34,973 bases of DNA, taken from NCBI GenBank assembly GCA_023140215.1, contig JAGLMC010000012.1:1-34973 (forward strand), read 5' to 3'. Of the stretch, positions 1,203 through 34,973 are shown piece after piece; the first letter of the stretch is position 1, and the number at the start of each line of letters is the position of its first letter. A model generated the notes under the pieces. It had not been told where the DNA came from. It saw nothing but the letters and a program-made list of their open reading frames with translations, and searched no databases. Source of the stretch: Alphaproteobacteria bacterium (GTDB taxonomy: Bacteria; Pseudomonadota; Alphaproteobacteria; Micavibrionales; Micavibrionaceae). The position numbers and the translations under genes are program-made.

Positions 1203-2150
1203 ATGTCAGAAATAAAAATATATAAGAAAAAGCGTAAGGGAATTTTAAATACATTAAAAACTTGCGTGTATCGAAATCGTCTTGGTGAATTATTAGTCAC
1301 TAAAGGATTGATCTCGACAAAAGAACTGCATCATGCACTCAAAGCGCAGAAAGAAACATGTCAGCCTCTTGGACAGATTTTTCTAAAACACAGCGTGATT
1401 TCAAAAAAACAATTAATTTTTATACTAAGTAGACAACTATTACTTCGTTGCATGATTGCGTTAACCTTTTTTATCTCTGCATCTCATACAAAAGTACATG
1501 CTGATATTATTGATGTACCGGCACGTCTTACAATCTCAGCACCGAATATGACACAGCACTTTACAAAAGTCTCTGCATATCCAAATCTGTTTGGTTCATA
1601 TGAGAAGCGTTCCAGAAACTTAAAGCCTTTTACTAAATGGACAAGCATGTTCCATAGATTTGATATCGAGCTTAAAAATGGAAAAAGTAATCAGTTAATA
1701 CGTAATTGGCAAAATAATTTATTATTATTCAAAGACCTTAATCTGAAAAATATGGCTAATCAGGTCAATAATCTTATTAATCAGGAACAATATATTTTAG
1801 ATAATAGAAATTGGGGTAAAAGCGATTATTGGGCTACACCAGTTGAATTTTTGGAACATGGTGGCGATTGTGAAGATTTTGCCATTGCCAAATATACAGC
1901 CTTACGTGCCCTTGGTGTTCCTGAAGAACGCCTTCGTGTTGCTATTGTTCATGATAATGTCAAAAATATCCCACATGCCGTGTTAGTAGTTTATACGGAA
2001 AGTGGCCCTTATATTCTTGATAACCAGATTAAAACACTGATTAACGCAAGTGTAGGCGTACGTTATCGCCCAATCTTTTCAATCAACCGTACAGCTTGGT
2101 GGCTACATACAGCTTCAAGCGAAAATACGATTATTGCTTCTGCACAGTAA
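1203..2150 (+). CDS. Membrane-associated BTLCP (transglutaminase-like) cysteine peptidase with N-terminal MshEN-like domain
   Basis: A 315-residue protein in three parts. Residues 26-49 and 55-78 are two 24-residue motifs of the MshEN / GspE N-terminal type: each has LG at positions 2-3, I at 12 (or its L/I neighbour), L at 17, L at 21 and Q at 24. Residues 79-100 are hydrophobic and end in KVHA, so they may be a short membrane anchor or an internal signal peptide. The rest is a BTLCP domain (bacterial transglutaminase-like cysteine peptidase, the LapG family) with probable triad Cys223 (GGDCEDF), His258 (PHAV) and Asp273 (ILDNQ). MshEN domains are known c-di-GMP receptors, and LapG is a periplasmic adhesin protease controlled by c-di-GMP through LapD. 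Direct c-di-GMP control of this protease is inference. The ATG at 1203 follows a GGGG-containing stretch; an alternative at Met84 has no visible ribosome binding site. No LapA-like or LapD-like gene is in the window. Confidence 0.8.
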   Translation: MSEIKIYKKKRKGILNTLKTCVYRNRLGELLVTKGLISTKELHHALKAQKETCQPLGQIFLKHSVISKKQLIFILSRQLLLRCMIALTFFISASHTKVHADIIDVPARLTISAPNMTQHFTKVSAYPNLFGSYEKRSRNLKPFTKWTSMFHRFDIELKNGKSNQLIRNWQNNLLLFKDLNLKNMANQVNNLINQEQYILDNRNWGKSDYWATPVEFLEHGGDCEDFAIAKYTALRALGVPEERLRVAIVHDNVKNIPHAVLVVYTESGPYILDNQIKTLINASVGVRYRPIFSINRTAWWLHTASSENTIIASAQ

Positions 2151-17630: not shown

Positions 17631-18119
17631 ATGAAAAAAAGTAAAAAAACACTTATTGCCGTATCAGCGCTTGCTCTAAGAGCTGCCGCGCCTACACCTG
17701 CATTTGCACAAATATTAATTAGTTGTGCTCAAGATTTAAGATTTGGAAATTTAGCGACTTGCGCAAAAGGAGCCCTTATTCTTACAGCAAATGGAGCTAC
17801 CAGTACCACAGGATGTGCTGTTATCTCAAAAACAGCACTTCCAGCTCAATGCACTATAAAAACCGGAGGCGTTCCACCAACTACTAACGTAAACGTCCAA
17901 TTCACAGCTGCTTTTATTAATATAAAAAATGGTGGAAAGAATGCTAAAGTTAGCAACTTTGAAATGATTCATACTGGAACAGCCGTAGCACAAACAAGTT
18001 TTACTTTCACACCTACAGAAGTTTCAAATACAGTTACAATTGATATCGGCGGTACTTTAAATTTTAACAATCAAACACTTGGAAGTTATACTGGAACGAT
18101 AAGTGTTACAGCAAATTAA
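17631..18119 (+). CDS. DUF4402-type pilin-like subunit
   Basis: A 162-residue exported protein with a signal peptide to about residue 26 (AFA) and an immunoglobulin-like beta domain. The start CAQDLRFGNLATCAKG and the end IGGTLNFNNQTLGSYTGTISVTAN fit the DUF4402 family, whose members are found beside PapD-like chaperones and usher-like proteins. It is therefore the likely structural subunit of a surface fibre, with the chaperone 29 bases downstream. Cysteines at the start (SCAQDL, TCAKG) and middle (TGCAV, QCTIK) can form disulfides. The signal peptide is odd in having an Arg inside the hydrophobic core (ALALRAAAP). Only one subunit gene is present; no tip adhesin is seen. Confidence 0.72.
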   Translation: MKKSKKTLIAVSALALRAAAPTPAFAQILISCAQDLRFGNLATCAKGALILTANGATSTTGCAVISKTALPAQCTIKTGGVPPTTNVNVQFTAAFINIKNGGKNAKVSNFEMIHTGTAVAQTSFTFTPTEVSNTVTIDIGGTLNFNNQTLGSYTGTISVTAN

Positions 18120-18148
18120 TAATAACAATGATGGAGATAACAAATACT

Positions 18149-18991
18149 ATGAATACTATTAAGCAACATCCCAAAAAAACTGTTCTATTCTTTTTATTTC
18201 TGAGCATTTTGTCATTTTGGCCAATAAATAGCCACGCAACATTTGTATCTCCTAAACGTGTTATGATCGAGGACGGTCAACGAGTTGCTGTTGTTATAAT
18301 TAATAATGGTAAAGACGAAACAATGGTCTATAGCTTTAGTTGGGAACAACGCATACAATCCCCAACAGGAGAAAGTCTTCTTCTAAAAGAAGGAGAAACA
18401 GCCCCAGGTTTTATGCCGGCAAGTCCTATACTACAATTTTCACCACGTCGTGTTGTTATAGGGCCAAAAAAATCACAAAAAGTGCGAATTCTTGTAAAAC
18501 GCCCCTCAAATTTACCAAAGGGTGAATATCACTCACATCTCCTAATAAAGCCCATTCCGCTTGTAGATAATAAAGTTGCTATGGAAGCTGGAGAAGGACT
18601 TAGCGGTATTATAAAAGTTAGAGCTAATCTATCTATTCCAGTTTTTATAAGACATGGAAAAACTACATTAGATATTAAACTTCAAGAAGCTTATTTGCAT
18701 AAGGTAAAAGGTAGAACTACAGTACATACGAATTATATAAACAACAGCACTCGCAGTGTTTATCTTAAACCTGAACTCCTTTGTTATATAGCAGGGGAAG
18801 AAGAGCCAATTAGAACAATTATACAAACAAGTAAAATCTATGTTGAGGCTAAATCTATAATCAGAAACACTATTGTTCCCAAAGAAGCTGATCTTAGCAA
18901 ATGCACTGCTTTTAAACTTGAGCTCTTTAGCCTTAATGATTTTGAATATAAAAACTCACCTTATATTAGTAGAGATATAATTTGGCGTTAA
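18149..18991 (+). CDS. PapD-like periplasmic pilus chaperone
   Basis: Periplasmic chaperone that caps pilin subunits by donor-strand complementation and hands them to the usher. About 280 residues with a signal peptide ending SHA. The N-terminal immunoglobulin domain (from VSPKRVMIEDGQRVAVVIIN to about 130) carries SPRRVVIGPKKSQKVRILVKRP, matching the G1 strand region of PapD-like proteins, and the second domain begins near SIPVFIRHGK. The open frame begins at ATG 18128, but GGAG at 18133-18136 lies before the ATG at 18149, which I prefer; the spacing of 12 is long, so the start is uncertain. It lies 29 bases after the pilin-like gene and ends 38 bases before a strong terminator. Confidence 0.82.
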   Translation: MNTIKQHPKKTVLFFLFLSILSFWPINSHATFVSPKRVMIEDGQRVAVVIINNGKDETMVYSFSWEQRIQSPTGESLLLKEGETAPGFMPASPILQFSPRRVVIGPKKSQKVRILVKRPSNLPKGEYHSHLLIKPIPLVDNKVAMEAGEGLSGIIKVRANLSIPVFIRHGKTTLDIKLQEAYLHKVKGRTTVHTNYINNSTRSVYLKPELLCYIAGEEEPIRTIIQTSKIYVEAKSIIRNTIVPKEADLSKCTAFKLELFSLNDFEYKNSPYISRDIIWR

Positions 18992-19029
18992 CTACTTCAT
19001 AAAATTAAAAAAATAACTCCATAAAGTAA

Positions 19030-19055
19030 AACAGCTCTTTTAAAGGGCTGTTTTT
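19030..19055 (+). terminator. Rho-independent terminator after the chaperone gene
   Basis: aacagctcttt (19030-19040) pairs with aaagggctgtt (19042-19052), with one G-U pair and the innermost pairs opened to make a loop, and T residues continue to 19055. It separates the pilin-chaperone transcript from the usher gene, which therefore needs its own promoter in the next 200 bases. Confidence 0.88.
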
Positions 19056-19058
19056 ACA

Positions 19059-19125
19059 TATAAACCTTCAAACGCCGGACATGCTTCAAGCTTATACCCG
19101 CCGTACAGTCGCACGATACAATTTT
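19059..19125. repeat. Dispersed two-hairpin repeat, copy 2
   Basis: A 67-base element aligning without gaps to 2151-2217 at 56 positions, with 11 transitions and no transversions. Both hairpins of copy 1 are damaged here (AAGC-ttat-ACCC; GCCGTA-cagtcg-CACGAT). It starts four bases after the chaperone terminator. Taking the pairing base from whichever copy keeps it gives CGGGC-ttac-GCCCG and CCGTGC-agtc-GCACGG, so both copies look like decayed versions of a more structured ancestor. Confidence 0.75.
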
Positions 19126-19158
19126 GAATAGAATCTATGTACATACGCCATAAAAGCC

Positions 19159-19167
19159 TGTGGATAA
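19159..19167 (-). other. Perfect DnaA-box match upstream of the usher gene
   Basis: TGTGGATAA on the plus strand is the exact complement of the consensus DnaA box TTATCCACA. It lies about 95 bases before the usher ATG in AT-rich DNA. I see a single box only; about 0.3 such matches are expected by chance in a window this size, so it may mean nothing. A role of DnaA in regulating the usher would be speculation. Confidence 0.2.
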
Positions 19168-19260
19168 AATGTTTATAATTATTGCAATTTTATAGAGTGC
19201 AACTAAAGCGTGCTATGATTCTAATGGGCTATTCTACTATTAATTTCTCTGCTCGGTTTC

Positions 19261-22200
19261 ATGGGCAAATTTCATTGTTGGTATGTAAGTGGGCGCACGA
19301 TGTGCGCTGTGGTTGCGTTTGCGCTTCTCACAGTCGTATGCTTTGTTAGCCCCACTTTAGCTACTGAAGTAACGGATCAGGTAGCGCAAAGAGCCGCCAT
19401 TAACAATGGCCAGCTTAACTCGGTAGCTAATGTTGCCGATGCTGTTGGTTTGAGTGTGATGTCGGAAGAGAATTCTTTTGCTTCGGCCATTGCTACTGCG
19501 ATGGGCGATATTTCTGTTTCTTCCGGTATATATAACGAATCAAGCTCTGAAGAAACCTACGATCTTATACTTAGCGTAACGCGAAAAGCACGTGTACTTT
19601 CTCAAGCTATTATTGGAATTGAAAAAGATTTTGTCTATTACGTGCCACTGCGCGAACTTGCTCGAATTCTAAAATTTCCTACAAATGCAAATCTATCAAC
19701 TCAAAGCGCTAATGGTTATTTCTTTAATGAAGTAAACACTTATAGCATAGATCTAAAAAATAAAACCTATAGCTTAAAAGACACAACATTTCCACTTCCT
19801 GAAAATAGCTTTTTAATAAAAGATCTAGGACAAAATCTTGGTGATATTTACGTCACTGTAGAACTTATCAATAAAATTTGGAATCTGGATCTAAATCTCA
19901 ATTTTTCAGAGCAAAGTATCCAAATTAAAACAAAGCGCAGACTTCCTTTTGAGTTAGAGCTTGAACGACAAAAAAATCAGAAAAATCTCGATAAACGTAA
20001 AGACAAAGAAGATACGAACAAACTCGAATATATCACAAATGGTTATAAATTGTTTGGGGCACAAAACTTCTCAATCATGGATGATCTGTCATGGAGCAAT
20101 GAAAATAACGAAATAATAAATAATCTTACAATAAGCGGTATTGGTGACGCGCTTGGAGCTAGTGCAGATTACACAATTAAGACAATCCAGAGCAAAAATA
20201 ACTCCTTTAATGTCGATGACATTCGTCTGCGTTTGACACGTCGTGATTTTGGAACAGATAAATTATTACCGTTTGGCCTCAGACTAGCGCAAGTAGGTGA
20301 TATTTCTGTTTCTCCTTCTCCATTAATAGGTCAAATCATGTCCGGTCGTGGCATGTTTATATCTTCAAAGGGTAGCGTTAACAAACAATCATTTGATGAA
20401 ATCGTAATTGAAGGAACAGCACAGCCCGGTTGGGAGGTCGAGCTTTATCTCAATAGACATCTTATAGATTTTGGATTTGTAAATAAACTGGGCGAATATC
20501 GTTTTGAAAATGTCCCCCTTAATTATGGCGGGAATAAAATCAAAATTATTCTATATGGCCCGCAAGGACAAATTGAGGAGCGTCACGAAGATTATCGGGT
20601 AAAGGGTAATATGTTACGCCCCGGAGAAACAAATTTTGAAGCCGGTATCCTTGATTTTAAAAAACGTTTTATTGAAATTAATGATGATCCCAATAGCAAA
20701 AAAGGTATAGCAAAATATCTCCGGATTAATCGCGGGATTAACAGTTGGGCTACCGGCTATGCTACGGCAACACAATCTCCATCAAAAGAAAACGATACTA
20801 AATATCTATCACTGGGAGCTAGCTTTAACGCATTAGGTGGAGCTGGACAAATTGAAGCCTATAAGCAAATTGATGGCGGCACAGCTCTTGATGCCAAATT
20901 TGCCCGTAAATTTGCCGGTATTCGTACTAATGCCAGCATGTCCTTTTATAATGACTTTGAAAGTAAAGAAGCAAATTTTGGTAACAATAAAAAAACATTT
21001 ACAGGAAAATTTAGAGCATTACGTCATTTCATATTGCCCTTTGCTCAAGGAAGTCTTGATTTTAACGCACAACATACAAAATATGAAAATAATAAAAACA
21101 CTACTATAATTAAAAGCCGTCAAAGCCTTTCAAGAAAAAAACTAAACGCAACAAATACGGTAAATACAACTTTTACTAATAATAAGCGCAAAAGCTCAAC
21201 AGGTCAGTTTAGCTTGAGTGCTCCTTTTTCTGATAATTGGAATTTAAGATCATCTTTGTTTTATGACATTTATCCAAAGAGCGCACTTGATTCTACGCGC
21301 ATAAGACTTGGTTACACTGATAATGATAAATTCACATCAAACCTAACATTCAAACAAGGTATTGAAGACAAAGACAAAACCGCAATCACAGCAGCAGCGT
21401 CTTATGACTTTGGTACATTCTTTGGAGGCGTTGATGTTAATTGGTCAAAGAATGATGGTTATGATCTGTTATTACGTGCAAATACAAATTTTGGTTCCAA
21501 TGAAGAAAAAGGATCATATAAATTTACCAGTTCGCCAGACAGTCAAAAAAGCAGCATTGATGCTCAAATATATAATGATATTAATAATGACGGCGAATAT
21601 AGCGAAATTGATGAACCTATAGAAGGTGGCCGAATCCTCATTAACGGTTCTCGCAAGTCAGATCCATCAAATGCAAATGGCTATATCAATATATCAAATG
21701 TCGGTATTCAAGGACTGGCTATTATTACCTTTGATCAGAATAGCTCTCCAAATCCATTTTTGGCATCTGTAAAAGACGGTTATAAGACAGTTTTACGCGC
21801 AGGAACAAAACCTTTCATTAACATGCCTCTGATTATGACAGGCAGCATTGACGGCACAATTCGTTTTGCTGATGGACGTTCTGTGCCGGGCATGATTATC
21901 CAACTGGTTGATAAACACGGCCAGCTTGTCGCAGAAAGTCCAACACTTTCTGACGGTTTTTATTCATTCGAATTTGTGAAGCCTGGACGATATATCGTTC
22001 AAGTCCATGCCTCACACAGAGTTTTCGTCCCACCCCGTACCGTTACGGTGGCTTCCGATGATCTATTTGCTTATGGCGTAGATCTCCAAATTTTGGAACA
22101 GGCTAAGGAAGCGCCGGTCACTAACAATGAAGGAGATGGTAGAGTAGCCCATACTTACCTGCCTTCAGTGACCGGTGGGATGAAAAAGCCTGTTTCAATG

Positions 22201-22554
22201 CCTTCTAGCGACGGGGTCCAAGCCGTTGTTAGAGCCGTTCGGATCGGGGAGCATCCACACAAGGTTCGCCTTGTGTTGGATCTCTCCGAGCCGGCGCGCT
22301 ATCAAATTTTAAAAGAGCAAGACGGATATATAATCACGATCGAACTCCCTGATGTTGGCTTTGAAGCTACTCATAATTGGTTGCCAAATAAGCACAGCAT
22401 CTTCTCTAACTGTGAAATCAATACACTTGCCGGTGGCGGAACTCAGTTACGCCTCACAGGTAAGGATAAAATAGACGTTTTTTACAATGCTTTATTGCCA
22501 TCTGAAAATGGTAAGCCTGACCGTCTATATATCGATTTCATACGGGTTAAATAA
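19261..22554 (+). CDS. Usher-like outer-membrane protein with C-terminal AMIN domain
   Basis: A 1097-residue protein, probably the secretion pore for the DUF4402 fibre. Order of parts: a signal peptide to about residue 35; a small alanine-rich segment; a copper-amine-oxidase-N-like domain at about 115-235 (YYVPLRELARIL, then DIYVTVELI); a long stretch of alternating polar/hydrophobic beta strands (about 265-765) of an outer-membrane barrel, with a possible plug region near EIVIEGTAQPGWEVELYLN at about 382-400; an SdrD-like segment at about 768-840 (NDINNDGEYSEIDEP, a likely calcium-binding loop); a carboxypeptidase-regulatory-like domain at about 860-930; and an AMIN domain from about 987 to the end (RIGEHPHKVRLVLDLSE at 994-1010, closing GKPDRLYIDF). 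The classical FimD N-terminal domain is not recognised. The start may instead be the ATG at residue 14. The ends of the gene are clearly richer in G+C than its middle. Confidence 0.68.
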   Translation: MGKFHCWYVSGRTMCAVVAFALLTVVCFVSPTLATEVTDQVAQRAAINNGQLNSVANVADAVGLSVMSEENSFASAIATAMGDISVSSGIYNESSSEETYDLILSVTRKARVLSQAIIGIEKDFVYYVPLRELARILKFPTNANLSTQSANGYFFNEVNTYSIDLKNKTYSLKDTTFPLPENSFLIKDLGQNLGDIYVTVELINKIWNLDLNLNFSEQSIQIKTKRRLPFELELERQKNQKNLDKRKDKEDTNKLEYITNGYKLFGAQNFSIMDDLSWSNENNEIINNLTISGIGDALGASADYTIKTIQSKNNSFNVDDIRLRLTRRDFGTDKLLPFGLRLAQVGDISVSPSPLIGQIMSGRGMFISSKGSVNKQSFDEIVIEGTAQPGWEVELYLNRHLIDFGFVNKLGEYRFENVPLNYGGNKIKIILYGPQGQIEERHEDYRVKGNMLRPGETNFEAGILDFKKRFIEINDDPNSKKGIAKYLRINRGINSWATGYATATQSPSKENDTKYLSLGASFNALGGAGQIEAYKQIDGGTALDAKFARKFAGIRTNASMSFYNDFESKEANFGNNKKTFTGKFRALRHFILPFAQGSLDFNAQHTKYENNKNTTIIKSRQSLSRKKLNATNTVNTTFTNNKRKSSTGQFSLSAPFSDNWNLRSSLFYDIYPKSALDSTRIRLGYTDNDKFTSNLTFKQGIEDKDKTAITAAASYDFGTFFGGVDVNWSKNDGYDLLLRANTNFGSNEEKGSYKFTSSPDSQKSSIDAQIYNDINNDGEYSEIDEPIEGGRILINGSRKSDPSNANGYINISNVGIQGLAIITFDQNSSPNPFLASVKDGYKTVLRAGTKPFINMPLIMTGSIDGTIRFADGRSVPGMIIQLVDKHGQLVAESPTLSDGFYSFEFVKPGRYIVQVHASHRVFVPPRTVTVASDDLFAYGVDLQILEQAKEAPVTNNEGDGRVAHTYLPSVTGGMKKPVSMPSSDGVQAVVRAVRIGEHPHKVRLVLDLSEPARYQILKEQDGYIITIELPDVGFEATHNWLPNKHSIFSNCEINTLAGGGTQLRLTGKDKIDVFYNALLPSENGKPDRLYIDFIRVK

Positions 22555-28981: not shown

Positions 28982-31498
28982 TTACTTAAATTTTTGTAGT
29001 CGTTCTTTAGCTTTTTGACTACCGGAAGCACTTGCTTTTTTTAACCAATAAATACTTTTATCTTTGGATTCTTCAACCATATATCCTGAAATATATAAAT
29101 TAGCTAATTCTATCATGGACGGTATATGACCATTTTCCGCACTTTTATTAAGCCAATATATTGCTTTACTACTATCTTCCCTAGTCTTTGCTTTGTTAAA
29201 ATAAAAATTTGTTAACCAGCTAATAGCAGTACTATTTTTATTATCCGCAAATTTTTCTATAACTGATATTGCATGATTTCGTTTATCCGGCTTTTCTGCA
29301 AGAGATGAATTTAATATAGCAAATGCTATTCTCATTTTATCTTCATCTGTTTCTGCTTTTTTTCCAGCCAATATAGTAAACCACTTTTCCGCATTATTAA
29401 CATCTTGCGGCGCTCCATTTTTTCCTTCCATGTAAGAATCTGCAACTTTTAGTATTTCACCCGGCATACAAGGATATGATTCTACAGCTTTTGTGAACCA
29501 TTTTTTTGCTTTTTGCTCGTTTTTCTCTTGTATCCATCCATCAGATGAATAACCACCAGCTAGTCTAAGCATAGCTTCAACAACGTTACGTTTTCCGGCG
29601 ATCTCCAGAATATGTATAGCTTCATTTTCTTTGTGTTGCTGTATTTTAATTTCTGCAATATCCATATAAGCAGAAACTTTTCCATTTTTAGCGGCTTTAA
29701 ATAAATGCTCCTCAGCTTTACTGAACTCTCCTTGTCTCATAAAAAACTTCCCAAGTTTATTATGAGCGCCCGGATGCCCCATTTGAGCTGCTATATTTAA
29801 TAATTCTTGTCCACGTTTAATATCTTTTTTGACAAGCTCTCCTTCTATATAGAGATTCCCAAGAAATGCATGACCATTATATTTATTATTTTCTTTTTTA
29901 TCCGTCTCAATAGTTTTATTAAACCAATAATTAGAAAGTTTATTATTTCCTGTTTTTTGATAATAAACACCAAGTAAAATCATTGCTTCTGGAATTTGCT
30001 TTATAGCAATTAATCTCTCTAATGAAGCTTTCAATTCTCCACTATCATCATATGGATAAACTAAAAGTTTGTCATAGGCCGCTTTTAGGAAAGGTTCTTC
30101 ACTATAATAATTAATTTGATCTGCCCAAAATTCTATTTTTTTATCGTCATATTCCTTACCGATACTACATTCATAAGCTTGTTTCATAGCTTTCATAGCT
30201 GCTTTTTTACCATTACTGGCAGCAAGTCTATAATAGCGTAAAGCTTTAGTGGGGGCGCGGTCTGTACCAATACCGTAACGATATGCATCTCCAAGCTTAA
30301 CCAGAGCTTCTCCACTTCCTTTAAGAGATGCTCTTTGATATAAAGAAAAAAGTTTTTCGGGAGGTACATTATCATCTTGCTCATATAATTCAGCAAGCTC
30401 CATTAGTGTATATGACTCAACATTTGGATGTTCTGACGCTTTTTCAAGCCAATACAATCTTTTATTTTTATCAGCTTTTATACCCTCCCATCCTTCATAA
30501 ATTCTTGATAAAAGAACTGCTGCTGCTTTATTATTACGAAGAGAAGATTTCTCCAGCCATTTTATAGCCTTCCCCATTTCATCTTTCTTACCGCTAAAGG
30601 AATGATATTCACCTAAAAGAAACATTGCTCTTTGTGAGCCAAGATCTGCAGCCTCAGTCCAGAGTTGAACAACCCGCTTTTTATCGTTTTCCTTGGCAAT
30701 TCCTTGTATTATAAAATTAGCCAAATAAAGCTTTGCTGTAATATCATCAAGTAATGCAACCTTCTCAAACCATTTTACGCTATAATATTTCGCATTAGGA
30801 ACATTATTCAATTGATTATACATAATGCCCATTATAGTTAAAGCTGAACACTTACCTTGAGCGATATAGTTTAATGCTACATTTTGAGCATTAATAATCA
30901 TGATTTCAATTTCCTTATCACTTACAGGTAATTTTTTTTCATGATAAAGATAAGAAAGCTTTAACATTGCCGATAGTTCTCCAGCAATAATAGCTTTTTT
31001 GTAATGTTCAGCGGCTTTTATATATTCACCTTCTTCAGTTAATAATACGCCATAAATTTTATGCGCTTTTATTTCTCCTGACTTAATAAGACTATCAAGC
31101 AATTCTTTACCCTTACTAATATCTTGAGGGATACCCTTTCCCTTAATTAGCATTTCAGCCTTTGTAAGAAGTGCTTTATTTATTTGATATGCTTTCTTAT
31201 TAACCAGATAATTAATAATATTTAAAACACGCGGATAATTTGGATTTATATTAACGCTGCCATTATAATAAAGCTCTAATAATTCTATGAGCTTTTCAGT
31301 AGACAAATTCATCTGTGCTATCGTTTTCCCACTCCAATTATAAGGATCAACGCTAAGTCTTTCATCCTTAATACAACGTGATGCATAATCAATATCAGGT
31401 GGTAAAATACCAAGATCATAAGCGCGAGCTTTACTAACAGCAAAAAAGCTACTCAATAAAATTATAAAGACAAAAAATGATCTAAAATATTTATGCAT
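28982..31498 (-). CDS. Large Sel1-repeat exported protein of the acetylation operon (AlgK-like role possible)
   Basis: An 838-residue protein with a signal peptide to about residue 26 (ARA|YD). The rest is about 20 Sel1-like alpha-helical repeats of roughly 36 residues (for example TKALRYYRLAASNGKKAAMK, and the C-terminal KAIYWLNKSAENGHIPSMIEL). Sel1/TPR arrays act as protein scaffolds; AlgK of the Pseudomonas alginate system is a Sel1-like outer-membrane lipoprotein that holds the secretion complex together. This protein is nearly twice that size and has no lipobox, so it is at most a functional parallel. It starts two bases after the algF stop, so it is surely co-translated with the acetylation genes. 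Confidence 0.82.
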   Translation of the reverse strand: MHKYFRSFFVFIILLSSFFAVSKARAYDLGILPPDIDYASRCIKDERLSVDPYNWSGKTIAQMNLSTEKLIELLELYYNGSVNINPNYPRVLNIINYLVNKKAYQINKALLTKAEMLIKGKGIPQDISKGKELLDSLIKSGEIKAHKIYGVLLTEEGEYIKAAEHYKKAIIAGELSAMLKLSYLYHEKKLPVSDKEIEIMIINAQNVALNYIAQGKCSALTIMGIMYNQLNNVPNAKYYSVKWFEKVALLDDITAKLYLANFIIQGIAKENDKKRVVQLWTEAADLGSQRAMFLLGEYHSFSGKKDEMGKAIKWLEKSSLRNNKAAAVLLSRIYEGWEGIKADKNKRLYWLEKASEHPNVESYTLMELAELYEQDDNVPPEKLFSLYQRASLKGSGEALVKLGDAYRYGIGTDRAPTKALRYYRLAASNGKKAAMKAMKQAYECSIGKEYDDKKIEFWADQINYYSEEPFLKAAYDKLLVYPYDDSGELKASLERLIAIKQIPEAMILLGVYYQKTGNNKLSNYWFNKTIETDKKENNKYNGHAFLGNLYIEGELVKKDIKRGQELLNIAAQMGHPGAHNKLGKFFMRQGEFSKAEEHLFKAAKNGKVSAYMDIAEIKIQQHKENEAIHILEIAGKRNVVEAMLRLAGGYSSDGWIQEKNEQKAKKWFTKAVESYPCMPGEILKVADSYMEGKNGAPQDVNNAEKWFTILAGKKAETDEDKMRIAFAILNSSLAEKPDKRNHAISVIEKFADNKNSTAISWLTNFYFNKAKTREDSSKAIYWLNKSAENGHIPSMIELANLYISGYMVEESKDKSIYWLKKASASGSQKAKERLQKFK

Positions 31499-31500
31499 TT

Positions 31501-32130
31501 TTATTTCTTAATTTTATTTTCAACAACAAATATCTGATAGGCATCTTTTTTTCCAATAAGAAAAATACTTGTTCCTATTTGTCTTTTTAATGAAATGTCT
31601 TTTAATGTTTTAATTTCTTCACTGGAAGATTTTACAATCAAATCAAAATCAACAGCATTTATTTCACGGGAAATAGATGTGTTAGTAGCAATATTTTCAA
31701 ATATTGTTGCTTTATAACTTGGAGCAAATAAAGAAGCAGAATTTAAATCTGATAAATTATAAAAATACAAAACAGCCTTTGAGGGATTTTCAATTAATGC
31801 GTCATCCATAAGATGAACTTTATTATTTATTAAAATCGCAATTGTATAATATTTACCAGCTTTAATATCTAGTTCTTCTGAATGATCTGCATAATTCAGA
31901 TTTCTTTGTCCTTGTTTAATAATAACAAAATCAGATACAGGAATTTCTTTAATACCGTTTAAAACTACACCATCAAGCTTAACTATAAGATCAGGATCAT
32001 CAGTAATATTAACAATACGCACAAAAGCAGAATCAGCAGGGGGCACCGGTGCATATAACGCTTCTTCACCTGCAATAGCTAAAGGCGAAATAAAAAGAAA
32101 TATGGCTAATATACTCCATAAATTTTTCAT
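31501..32130 (-). CDS. algF: AlgF-like alginate O-acetylation protein
   Basis: A 209-residue periplasmic protein with a signal peptide to about residue 20 (AIA|GE). The opening of the mature part, ALYAPVPPADSAFVRIVN, closely matches that of Pseudomonas AlgF (ALYGP..P.GSAFVRV.N), as do the FYNLSD and EINAVDF segments further on. AlgF is needed to transfer acetyl groups onto the polymer in the periplasm, as part of the AlgIJFX acetylation machinery. AAGGA lies ten bases before the ATG. Six bases separate it from algX and two from the Sel1-repeat gene, so all are in one operon. Confidence 0.88.
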   Translation of the reverse strand: MKNLWSILAIFLFISPLAIAGEEALYAPVPPADSAFVRIVNITDDPDLIVKLDGVVLNGIKEIPVSDFVIIKQGQRNLNYADHSEELDIKAGKYYTIAILINNKVHLMDDALIENPSKAVLYFYNLSDLNSASLFAPSYKATIFENIATNTSISREINAVDFDLIVKSSSEEIKTLKDISLKRQIGTSIFLIGKKDAYQIFVVENKIKK

Positions 32131-32136
32131 GTTTTA

Positions 32137-33495
32137 TTATTCCTTTTTTGTTTTTTTACAAAGCCGAACATTCAACCCTGTTTTATACTTGTTAGTATCT
32201 TTTATTGTAATGCTTGAAATATTACTGGTTATTTTATCAGAGAGTTCTATAAAATAATGTCCCTTATTATTATATCTATCTGATCGGTCAATAGGAAACC
32301 ATTCACCATCTTGATCATCATATTCCATTTCAAGTGTAAAAGTTTTAAACCCTAAATTATCTGCAAAAATATGTAAATAATAATCTGTGCCATGAATTTT
32401 TTGTTCTTCAAGATTATTAAGAAGGACATATGGCTTATTATCTATAATTTCAATATTGTTTTGAGCTAAAGTTTGACTATCACTACAAACACCCTCAACA
32501 GCTGGAATAACTTGTCTGAATAAATATTCCACTCCTTTATTGTAATTATAAACAGTCTGTGTTTCCCATATTATAATCGGTGGCGGATTCTCATGAAAAT
32601 ATGGAGATGAGAGATAAGAAATTATGGCGGTAAACATTCCACCACCGACAATAGAAAAATTGGAAATGCTAAGTTTTGAAAATTTCTCAAGATAATAAGC
32701 AAAATTAAATACGTTATGTGAGCTAAAACTTGTTCCTACTAATGCCACAGGCGTTATTTCTTTTACAGAACCAAAAAGTGCATCAGATGTTTTCTCAAAT
32801 ATTTGTGTTGCTTTATATGTATCATAAATTTCTGCCTCAATTTTATTCTTACAAAGTCTTCGTAGCTCTTCGGTAATTGTTCCATCACGTGATATTTGTG
32901 TTTTTAATTTTAAAACAGTATTTACTTTTGTTAGTGAACTGTAATCAGGATAGTCTAAAAGAAGAGAAGTAATAGCACGTGCGGTTACTTTTGCACCTTT
33001 AGGTTTCCAATGAATATCTCTTTTAAAATTATATAAATATGGATCATTCTTTTTAAATACATTAGTAGAAGAATAAAGATCACTAGTTTTAATTCCTACA
33101 GATCTTAAACTTTTTACAAAATCAACATAAGATGAAGAAGCAATATCAATATTATAATTTTCTTGCCATGGATCATCATAATTAATCATTTTACCGGCCA
33201 TAAGCGCTCTAGACAATAAAGGCACAATAAAAAAAGAAATATTTTTTTCAGCTAAAACTTCATTTAAACGCTTAAAATAAGAAAGGCTCTCTGGGGAAAG
33301 AGAAAAATCCATCTTTAAGTCATTTTCCCTAAAAAACCAGCCATCATAACCTTGAGTCAAAGGCTCTATAGAGCGTTTTTGTTCATTATAAAGATCAGGA
33401 CATTCATAAAGAACCTTTTCATTAGCTATAGACTTACTGCCTGTAAACAAAGTTACAAACATTAAAATAATTAAAAATTTAAAAAATACTTTCAT
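32137..33495 (-). CDS. algX: AlgX-like periplasmic polysaccharide O-acetyltransferase
   Basis: SGNH-like acetyltransferase that puts acetyl groups onto the exopolysaccharide in the periplasm. The 452-residue product has a signal peptide (cleavage after SIA), the segment GYDGWFFREN found in AlgX/AlgJ proteins, and catalytic candidates Asp160 and His162 (KRDIHWKPKGA) and Ser256 (LVGTSFS). The C-terminal 110 residues (YYLHIFADNLGF to LNVRLCKK) look like the beta-sandwich carbohydrate-binding module that distinguishes AlgX from AlgJ. The frame begins at a TTG (33528), but the ATG at 33495 directly opens the signal peptide and is preferred; its ribosome binding site is weak. It lies between algI and algF. 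Confidence 0.85.
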   Translation of the reverse strand: MKVFFKFLIILMFVTLFTGSKSIANEKVLYECPDLYNEQKRSIEPLTQGYDGWFFRENDLKMDFSLSPESLSYFKRLNEVLAEKNISFFIVPLLSRALMAGKMINYDDPWQENYNIDIASSSYVDFVKSLRSVGIKTSDLYSSTNVFKKNDPYLYNFKRDIHWKPKGAKVTARAITSLLLDYPDYSSLTKVNTVLKLKTQISRDGTITEELRRLCKNKIEAEIYDTYKATQIFEKTSDALFGSVKEITPVALVGTSFSSHNVFNFAYYLEKFSKLSISNFSIVGGGMFTAIISYLSSPYFHENPPPIIIWETQTVYNYNKGVEYLFRQVIPAVEGVCSDSQTLAQNNIEIIDNKPYVLLNNLEEQKIHGTDYYLHIFADNLGFKTFTLEMEYDDQDGEWFPIDRSDRYNNKGHYFIELSDKITSNISSITIKDTNKYKTGLNVRLCKKTKKE

Positions 33496-33585
33496 CACAA
33501 AAACTTGTCTTAATACCTTTAAAAACAAAGAGGCTACTATCAGTAAAAACGTTAAATGTCAAACTATTATCCATAATCTCAAGCT

Positions 33586-34973
33586 CTAAAATTGAAAATA
33601 TAAAAATGGTGAAAATGATTGTGCAATTAGTTTACACAAACCCAATGTAAATAAAATTGCTATTATCACTTGCCTTGAAACAGGTAAATAATAAGCCCAT
33701 GAACAATGATCTGTGTTTGGTTCTTTTCTCATAATAAAAGGAACAGTGAAAATAATAATATATGCAGCTATAAGAGTAAAAATCTGAAGGTTTGTAATAG
33801 ACCATGCTATATCACTAGATAAAGAAAATCCATTTTGTCCAATCATTCCGGCATACATTCCAAAAGCAGAAGAAATATTTATAGCTCTAAACAAAACCCA
33901 TCCAATCAAAACAAATATAAAGGTTAAAGGTAAAGCTACAAATGCCGGATAAGGCGTTTTCTTTTTTGCACCCAATCCGCGTTCGATAGCCATAATACTG
34001 CCGTGCCATGCTCCCCATAAAACAAACGTCCAGTTTGCTCCATGCCACAATCCACCTAAAACCATAGTAATAATAAGGTTAATATAAGTACGAAGTTTTC
34101 CCTTACGATTTCCACCCAAAGGAATATACAGATAATCCCGCAACCACGTAGAAAGGCTAATATGCCAACGTTGCCAAAACTCTGTTATAGATTTACTTAT
34201 ATATGGTTGATTGAAATTCTCGATAAAACGAAAACCCATCATCAACCCTAATCCAATTGCCATATCACTATAACCGGAAAAATCAAAATAAAGCTGCGCG
34301 GTATATGCTAAAACACCAATCCATGAATCTGCAAAACTTGGATCACTTTGTGCAAAAGCTGCATCTGCTAAAGGCGCAAGCGTATCCGCTATAAATATCT
34401 TTTTACAAAACCCCATAGAAAAACGAATAGCGCCTTCATTAAATTTGGCAAGACTATGTGTACGTTCTCTGAATTGATCTGCAACATCTTTATAACGCAA
34501 AACAGGCCCTGCAATTAACTGAGGAAACAGGGATATAAATGCTGCAAAATCTACAAAATTATCAGCGGGTCGCGCATCACGACGATAAACATCAATTAAA
34601 TAACTAATAGATTGAAAAATATAAAAAGAAATCCCTATTGGAAGAATTACATTCCATACCGTTACCGGAGAATTTCCAGCAGATTCTAAAAGTGTATTTA
34701 ATGAATCCACACCAAAATTAAAATATTTAAAATATCCTAAAATTAATAAATTTCCTACAACGCCAATCGTAAGCATTTTTTTACAGCTTTCATCATGACG
34801 TATAATAGATGTAGATATAAAATGGTTAAATAATGTGACAAATGCAAATAAAGCCATAAAATCTACACGCCACCAGCCATAAAAAATATAGCTGGCTATA
34901 AGAATAACATGAGAATGAAAACGCTTTGGGACAAGATAATAAATACCGAGAAACAATGGTAAAAAGACCATGA
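33586..34973 (-). CDS. algI: AlgI, membrane-bound O-acyltransferase (N terminus probably cut by window end)
   Basis: MBOAT-family inner-membrane protein that passes acetyl groups across the membrane for exopolysaccharide O-acetylation. About 461 residues are inside the window with some ten hydrophobic segments. Long blocks match Pseudomonas AlgI as I know it: DFAAFISLFPQLIAGPVLRY, LYFDFSGYSDMAIGLGLMM, and RWHISLSTWLRDYLYIPLGG. The MBOAT histidines are His270 (RWHIS) and His310 (LGGLWHGANW), the second being the catalytic one. The first visible Met (34971) falls inside the family's opening FLP.FLG.YYL block, so about nine residues are probably missing and the true start lies beyond the window. 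First of the visible operon algI-algX-algF-Sel1; polymer synthesis genes, if present, must be outside. Confidence 0.92.
   Translation of the reverse strand, partial: MVFLPLFLGIYYLVPKRFHSHVILIASYIFYGWWRVDFMALFAFVTLFNHFISTSIIRHDESCKKMLTIGVVGNLLILGYFKYFNFGVDSLNTLLESAGNSPVTVWNVILPIGISFYIFQSISYLIDVYRRDARPADNFVDFAAFISLFPQLIAGPVLRYKDVADQFRERTHSLAKFNEGAIRFSMGFCKKIFIADTLAPLADAAFAQSDPSFADSWIGVLAYTAQLYFDFSGYSDMAIGLGLMMGFRFIENFNQPYISKSITEFWQRWHISLSTWLRDYLYIPLGGNRKGKLRTYINLIITMVLGGLWHGANWTFVLWGAWHGSIMAIERGLGAKKKTPYPAFVALPLTFIFVLIGWVLFRAINISSAFGMYAGMIGQNGFSLSSDIAWSITNLQIFTLIAAYIIIFTVPFIMRKEPNTDHCSWAYYLPVSRQVIIAILFTLGLCKLIAQSFSPFLYFQF

Follow-up and report, generated by a model that had tools for sequence, protein, structure and literature searches.

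The open reading frame at positions 1203-2150 of the forward strand encodes, from an ATG start, a 315-residue protein (P0001) in which the N-subdomain of an MshEN domain (residues 26-78) is fused in frame to a BTLCP/Peptidase_C93 protease. We tentatively lean towards a reading in which the gene encodes a precursor form of a LapG-type cysteine protease of the periplasm, and in which MshEN, a c-di-GMP receptor domain, would form the cytoplasmic n-region of its signal peptide, with the ligand gating release of the enzyme. The architecture is conserved in the order of the host bacterium and carries the signature of a cleavage site; c-di-GMP binding, cleavage and gating are the properties that such a sequence would predict. 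The presence of the frame was confirmed in the window, by which we mean the whole stretch of 34,973 nucleotides that was analysed, and a search of the host genome (1.71 Mb in 116 contigs) returned this locus as the sole match to P0001 at E≤0.001. The parts of the gene are the following.

1203..2150, + strand: whole gene, precursor composed of MshEN, signal/export segment and BTLCP protease, 315 aa
1278..1436, + strand: MshEN N-subdomain, residues 26-78, predicted c-di-GMP-binding motif pair (NF053729; structure match 5htl_B)
1278..1349, + strand: MshEN motif I, residues 26-49 (RLG...Q), strict consensus satisfied
1365..1436, + strand: MshEN motif II, residues 55-78, satisfying the relaxed consensus but not the strict one, with P55 instead of Arg and S64 instead of Gly
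1446..1484, + strand: basic R82 and uncharged hydrophobic run 83-94, predicted signal h-region (conservation; helix 68-94 of the model enters the run)
1494..1502, + strand: signal-peptidase-I-type site V98-H99-A100, predicted cut after A100 (column conservation, 53 rows)
1680..2132, + strand: LapG-like BTLCP/Peptidase_C93 domain, residues 160-310 (NF045674, PF06035, LapG 4fgq_B)
1866..1874, + strand: D222-C223-E224, catalytic Cys with acidic neighbours (all 53 rows have D222 and C223, at least 90% have E224)
1974..1976, + strand: catalytic His258, invariant in 53 rows
2019..2021, + strand: catalytic Asp273, invariant in 53 rows

The C-terminal half of the protein was identified as a BTLCP domain, in agreement with the first-pass annotation of this DNA. 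Peptidase_C93 (PF06035) matched residues 184-281 with 73.9 bits against a gathering cut-off of 27, and the proposed Cys223/His258/Asp273 triad was complete and invariant in an alignment of 53 rows. This alignment (A1) was composed of P0001, 51 sequences from other genomes of the order and one from Alphaproteobacteria bacterium isolate OFTM95 (L031), with the interrupted genes of genomes G001 and G057 excluded; 51 of its rows are fused to MshEN. The LapG equivalog model NF045674 covered residues 160-310 with 105.1 bits, below its cut-off of 320. A LapG-type fold had also been proposed for this half and was recovered by both structure searches, which used an AF2 model of P0001 built on the 53-row alignment (mean pLDDT 89.0, pTM 0.68). 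Foldseek matched LapG 4fgo with an E-value of 4.6e-11, and VIA-align matched LapG 4fgq_B with a Z-score of 17.2 (rmsd 3.3, 155 residues aligned). Sequence searches against PDB chains identified LapG 4fgo (E 9.8e-24) for the protease and MshE 5htl_A (E 4e-7) for the N-terminal region. The acidic residues D222 and E224 beside the catalytic cysteine presumably correspond to the Ca2+-site residues of LapG.

The N-terminal region was assigned to MshEN on the basis of the NF053729 model for the MshE-related c-di-GMP motif (53 positions), which covered residues 26-78 over its full length with 54.7 bits (cut-off 38, E 6.2e-15) and matched 51 of the 53 alignment rows at E≤1. The earlier identification of this domain was therefore borne out by NF053729 but not by the Pfam MshEN model PF05157, which gave no match on P0001 at E≤1 and was absent among the best 25 of the 32 Pfam families listed for the 53 rows. 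The Pfam model is longer, at 90 positions, and P0001 has only the 53-residue N-subdomain; the same model gives 49.8 bits for the T2SSE ATPase encoded in the host genome. Two tandem 24-residue motifs, previously placed at residues 26-49 and 55-78, were confirmed with a 5-residue spacer. According to the main text of PMC5013675, the isolated MshEN N-subdomain of Vibrio cholerae MshE binds c-di-GMP with a KD of 0.35 µM, so that this subdomain is sufficient in VcMshE.

In order to evaluate the ligand-contact residues, 12 positions were taken from the description of VcMshE in the main text of PMC5013675 and column entropies were calculated over the 51 fused rows. The mean entropy was 0.57 bits at the ligand-contact columns, 1.60 bits at ten core columns and 2.61 bits at the remaining MshEN positions. 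Residues G28, L42, G57 and Q78 were each present in all 51 rows, position 26 was always basic (R in 39, K in 12) and Q49 was found in 43. In P0001 the ligand-contact set R, L, G, L, L, Q is complete in motif I, and motif II keeps L56, G57, L71, L75 and Q78 with P55 in place of Arg; the consensus Arg at position 55 is mostly lost among the fused rows, 24 of which have proline. The serine noted earlier at residue 64, a usual glycine position of motif II, is indeed present and lies in a variable column whose commonest residues over 53 rows include G (18), N (10), K (8), A (6) and S (2). The strict consensus was satisfied by motif I in 14 of the 51 rows, including P0001, and by motif II in none. 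Under the relaxed consensus, 31 rows qualify with motif I, 15 with motif II and 10, among them P0001, with both. Half of the putative c-di-GMP site is canonical, and half is altered.

The degenerate second motif and the silence of PF05157 would also be expected if the MshEN domain no longer bound c-di-GMP and the folded n-region instead slowed or steered export or docked to another membrane complex. Non-binding domains of this type have precedents, as GSPII/MshEN domains without binding are documented in the relevant passages of PMC12002112 and XpsE is described likewise in the main text of PMC5013675. However, the invariance of the contacts Q78, G28 and G57 and the frequent retention of Q49, amid non-binding and non-core positions that vary, make such a loss of binding improbable in our judgement.

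The model of P0001 is consistent with the assignment of the N-terminal domain. Blocks spanning residues 31-80 had pLDDT values of 94-97, and Foldseek matched the region to MshE with bound c-di-GMP (5htl_B) with an rmsd of 0.7 Å over 54 columns, 42% identity, a probability of 1.00 and an E-value of 0.15. VIA-align gave a Z-score of 9.5 for 5htl_B (rmsd 1.9, 59 residues aligned), which lies below the cautionary value of about 13 for helical bundles. Because such a score carries little weight on its own when the fold is a helical bundle, we base the identity of the MshEN domain on the sequence match.

Between the two domains, the sequence of P0001 satisfies the signal-peptidase-I pattern with R82, the uncharged run 83-94 and V98-H99-A100. 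A100 is present in 53 of 53 rows and is the sole invariant column within residues 79-128; the next two columns in conservation are R82, with R in 46 rows, K in 6 and A in 1, and position 98, with A in 45, S in 4, V in 3 and T in 1. A basic residue followed by an uncharged run and an A/S/V/T-x-A site is a pattern typical of a cleavable signal peptide. The uncharged run after MshEN measures 10-21 residues across the 51 fused rows, with 12 in P0001 and at least 16 in most, and its length alone could also permit a membrane anchor in many rows. As an alternative, the first-pass annotation had suggested that residues 84-100 act as a cleaved signal peptide. That part of the suggestion agrees with the observed pattern, but it does not displace the MshEN domain; the two readings combine, a seemingly genuine signal peptide being preceded by a genuine MshEN domain. 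A translation start at Met84 was considered and rejected, as methionine occupies this column in only 5 of the 53 rows and the upstream MshEN domain is conserved, which supports a translated N-terminus. The mature form is most likely the cut, periplasmic protease.

The membrane-tethered, one-component Lap protease that had been put forward originally is accordingly not favoured. In an uncleaved single-pass protein of this kind, the cytoplasmic MshEN domain would bind c-di-GMP and exert control, by way of the membrane helix, over a protease tethered in the periplasm. In the model, the MshEN bundle and the hydrophobic run do share one continuous helix (residues 68-94), the uncharged runs of most fused rows are long enough, and a membrane-anchored BTLCP protein, DvhG, is reported in the passages of PMC13090378 that describe it. 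We nevertheless find this arrangement clearly unlikely given the fully conserved A-x-A-type site and the short run in P0001 itself. Moreover, pLDDT falls to 61-74 in the blocks covering residues 91-120, which leaves no rigid path into the protease, and apart from residues 97-99 no three consecutive residues have a pLDDT below 50.

To examine the conservation of the fusion, P0001 was used to query an order sample of 58 genomes composed of the host genome and relatives up to the same order. Matches were found in 55 genomes and the intact MshEN-protease fusion in 50, so that the same fusion does occur in related genomes, and its recurrence across the sampled order places it beyond chance. The gene was frameshifted in G001 and split across contig ends in G057 (L067, L068), and a protease without MshEN was found in G032 and G041, the latter genome being 73% complete. 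No such protein was found in G015, G016, G027 (98% complete) and G039; the sole P0001 match in G015 was an MshEN domain in another frame of 599 residues. Neither MshEN nor the protease is therefore indispensable. In-frame stops between the two halves, which would have made them two separate genes, were considered and rejected, as the recomputed frames span from upstream of MshEN to the end of the protease without internal stops. A true break is found in G001, a genome of the same genus, where the frame changes at eight consecutive A that lie between motifs I and II (L091 6898-7900), reflecting either a sequencing or assembly error or slippage.

The same fusion was not identified outside the order among the matches listed for two broader samples. 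At E≤1e-6, P0001 matched 108 of 385 genomes sampled from the class. Four of these belong to the family of the window, and in the others no listed match begins before query residue 77. At E≤1e-10 it matched 129 of 398 genomes sampled from the phylum, where the listed matches besides the window's own begin at residue 105 or beyond. Further named relatives (L032-L045, from this order or another) showed no MshEN by eye and mostly had signal-type or lipoprotein-type N-termini.

The surroundings of the gene were also inspected. A divergent hldE gene lies upstream in 45 of 58 loci and pyk lies downstream in 16 of 58, counts that come from short flanks and include a few non-orthologous loci. Elsewhere in the window, positions 17631-22554 encode, one after another, a DUF4402 protein, a product weakly resembling PapD and a protein of 1097 residues, perhaps a surface cluster of the chaperone-usher type. 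At positions 28982-34971, a repeat-type protein of 838 residues (AlgK/MotX-like, below cut-off) lies near AlgF-like and DltB-like genes, and these genes are perhaps an alginate-acetylation-type cluster.

Two genomes of the order, G051 and G057, from two genera of one family, encode stand-alone MshEN proteins with a hydrophobic tail and no exported domain. These proteins measure 101 residues (L085 5771-6076) and 112 residues (L086 2379-2717), and that of G051 is without A-x-A. Together with the invariance of A100 and the unfused proteases of G032 and G041, they favour a serious rival to gating, namely that signal peptidase I always parts the two halves. The protease would then be independent, and the remnant of about 100 residues, comprising MshEN and the signal segment, would serve as a membrane c-di-GMP effector or a targeting device. 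Against this, joint synthesis seems to matter, as 50 of 58 genomes retain the fusion, and short stand-alone MshEN frames occur in only 2 of the 58; we regard such constitutive cleavage as somewhat unlikely.

Other proteins carrying MshEN in front of an export segment were sought with NF053729, which matched 93 of 289 genomes in a class-wide search, 67 over cut-off. Ten shorter open frames were examined, a set that does not include the short ones of G250, G123, G159, G264 and G114, and in three of the ten MshEN directly precedes an export-type segment. In the first (L125 791-1516) the segment is followed by a FecR-like domain (Pfam E 0.026; retention_LapA 34.6 bits against 50). The second (L127 1016-1822) has an A-V-A site and the third (L134 1208-2290) a tandem MshEN and an Ala-rich signal-type site, each followed by a domain without family assignment. 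Of the other seven, inspected by eye, some look ATPase-type or ParA/kinase-like, and the rest either lack an export segment or are truncated where the stretch ends. In G250, a frame of 359 residues contains MshEN at three places.

A plasmid search with the N-terminal region of P0001 returned four records, comprising two annotated ATPases, one glycosyltransferase and one protein from Acaryochloris. The latter, WP_235111671.1 of plasmid pMB01 (L135 2468-3403), is annotated as an M23 family metallopeptidase and has relatives with 70% identity on two A. marina plasmids. It resembles P0001 in its succession of MshEN (66.5 bits), a basic gap of 4 residues, a hydrophobic run and an exported-type peptidase, here Peptidase_M23, but differs in peptidase family and phylum and in having no clear A-x-A after the run. 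The gap between the final Gln of MshEN and the hydrophobic run is 2-4 residues in P0001, P0002 and the proteins of L125, L127 and L085, and 5, as read by eye, in that of L134. Since unrelated exported domains share this layout, the module may be a general one. It is possible, though doubtful, that second-messenger-gated signal peptides are a recurrent class in which c-di-GMP decides whether periplasmic enzymes (BTLCP, M23 in Acaryochloris and others) are translocated or cut free.

The genomes of the order were also analyzed for components of c-di-GMP signaling and of a Lap system. GGDEF was found in all 58 genomes, and the host genome has six GGDEF and four EAL places. NF053729 was found in 56 of 58, usually in one open frame of about 600-880 residues in addition to this fusion; the larger frame of the host genome is the T2SSE ATPase. 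The LapD receptor domain LapD_MoxY_N was found in none of the 58 order genomes, whereas a positive control on 200 phylum genomes detected it in 58 (57 over cut-off), the 11 in the same class scoring weakly. As a LapD substitute, a GGDEF-EAL protein of 710 residues in the host genome was considered and set aside; it shows two hydrophobic segments by eye, and Pfam gave EAL and GGDEF only. In G037 and G049 (2 of 58 loci) the fusion has a GGDEF gene as its tail-to-tail neighbour, an adjacency that is no more than suggestive.

The host genome encodes two type I HlyD adaptors over cut-off. It also has a type I secretion cluster at L120 4318-12920, in which HlyD was assigned from its family match and the outer-membrane and ABC components were recognized by eye; after the cluster, the other strand encodes a cNMP_binding-EAL protein. 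Partial retention_LapA matches were found in 41 of the 58 order genomes, none over cut-off, and the Caulobacter vibrioides control matches as well. We inspected 11 large retention_LapA-like proteins of about 730-2,230 residues, one of them cut by a contig end; the protein of the host genome is truncated at 239 residues (L098 3-719). These large proteins with partial LapA-retention similarity (L098 3-719, L099-L109) are possible surface adhesins. Two retention_LapA-like proteins were scanned with Pfam and both have FecR, and a HlyD-like gene was recognized by eye nearby in L105, L108 and L109. A search for a LapA-like di-Ala substrate site revealed no AA[GDNT] site common to the 11 large candidates, and the retention_LapA-like proteins are candidate substrates of the protease only.

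On the basis of these features, gating may be envisaged in four steps. The MshEN domain would fold in the cytoplasm and, judging from its conserved ligand-contact residues, bind c-di-GMP. Its last helix, which bears the contact Q78, is predicted to enter the export helix with only LLLR between, and through this continuity the ligand state could affect how the precursor is inserted, translocated or processed by signal peptidase I at A100. When c-di-GMP is low, the protease would be cut free into the periplasm and trim an envelope or adhesin substrate, and when it is high, the precursor would be retained at the inner membrane. This direction is a guess by analogy; it would match the LapD-LapG logic, in which high c-di-GMP keeps LapG at the inner membrane, with LapD dispensed with. 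Control of export or maturation is the most economical reason for a c-di-GMP site placed right before a signal peptide.

The gating model is supported by retention of the fusion in the order, the conserved contact columns, A100, the continuous helix and the structural matches to 5htl and LapG. The ubiquity of GGDEF without LapD_MoxY_N, the GGDEF neighbours, the recurrent layout and ligand binding by the VcMshE N-subdomain also support it. It is weakened by the degenerate motif II, the silent PF05157, the long uncharged runs and the order genomes without MshEN or without the protein, as well as by the lack of a common AA[GDNT] site in the candidates and by GGDEF adjacency at just two loci.

Comparison with known systems places P0001 near, but apart from, LapG/LapD of Pseudomonas. 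The protease fold and triad are alike, c-di-GMP is the expected signal and type I HlyD adaptors are present in the host genome. However, the LapD receptor acts in trans, whereas MshEN is carried in cis on the precursor, and the order differs in the absence of LapD_MoxY_N matches and P0001 in its low score on the LapG equivalog. The nearest experimental precedents, within the passages describing them, are HvyA and DvhG, an alphaproteobacterial BTLCP with a signal sequence and a membrane-anchored BTLCP, respectively. HvyA of Caulobacter (PMC4241560) is likewise periplasmic but has a classical N-terminal Sec signal and PleC-dependent, G1-restricted transcription, with no MshEN in its description there. 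DvhG of Desulfovibrio vulgaris (PMC13090378) acts in a c-di-GMP circuit, but its receptor is the separate HD-GYP/dCache protein DvhD.

MshE and other MshEN proteins (PMC5013675) share with P0001 the 53-residue, two-motif domain with its ligand-contact residues, in line with the 5htl structure match. The MshEN partners named in the main text of that paper are ATPase, glycosyltransferase, REC, HD-GYP, CheA, CheX, cyclase and Ser/Thr kinase, with no exported peptidase. Among the matches listed in the literature searched, which covered the main text of PMC5013675, we found no description of an MshEN-BTLCP fusion, and the passages searched contained no precedent for ligand control of signal-peptidase cleavage.

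The known c-di-GMP control of periplasmic BTLCP proteolysis, in LapD-LapG and DvhD-DvhG, uses a separate transmembrane receptor, whereas here the receptor domain is on the precursor itself. If the ligand gates export or maturation, this would be a new control point for the second messenger, and c-di-GMP may then decide the release of a protein-cutting enzyme from its precursor.
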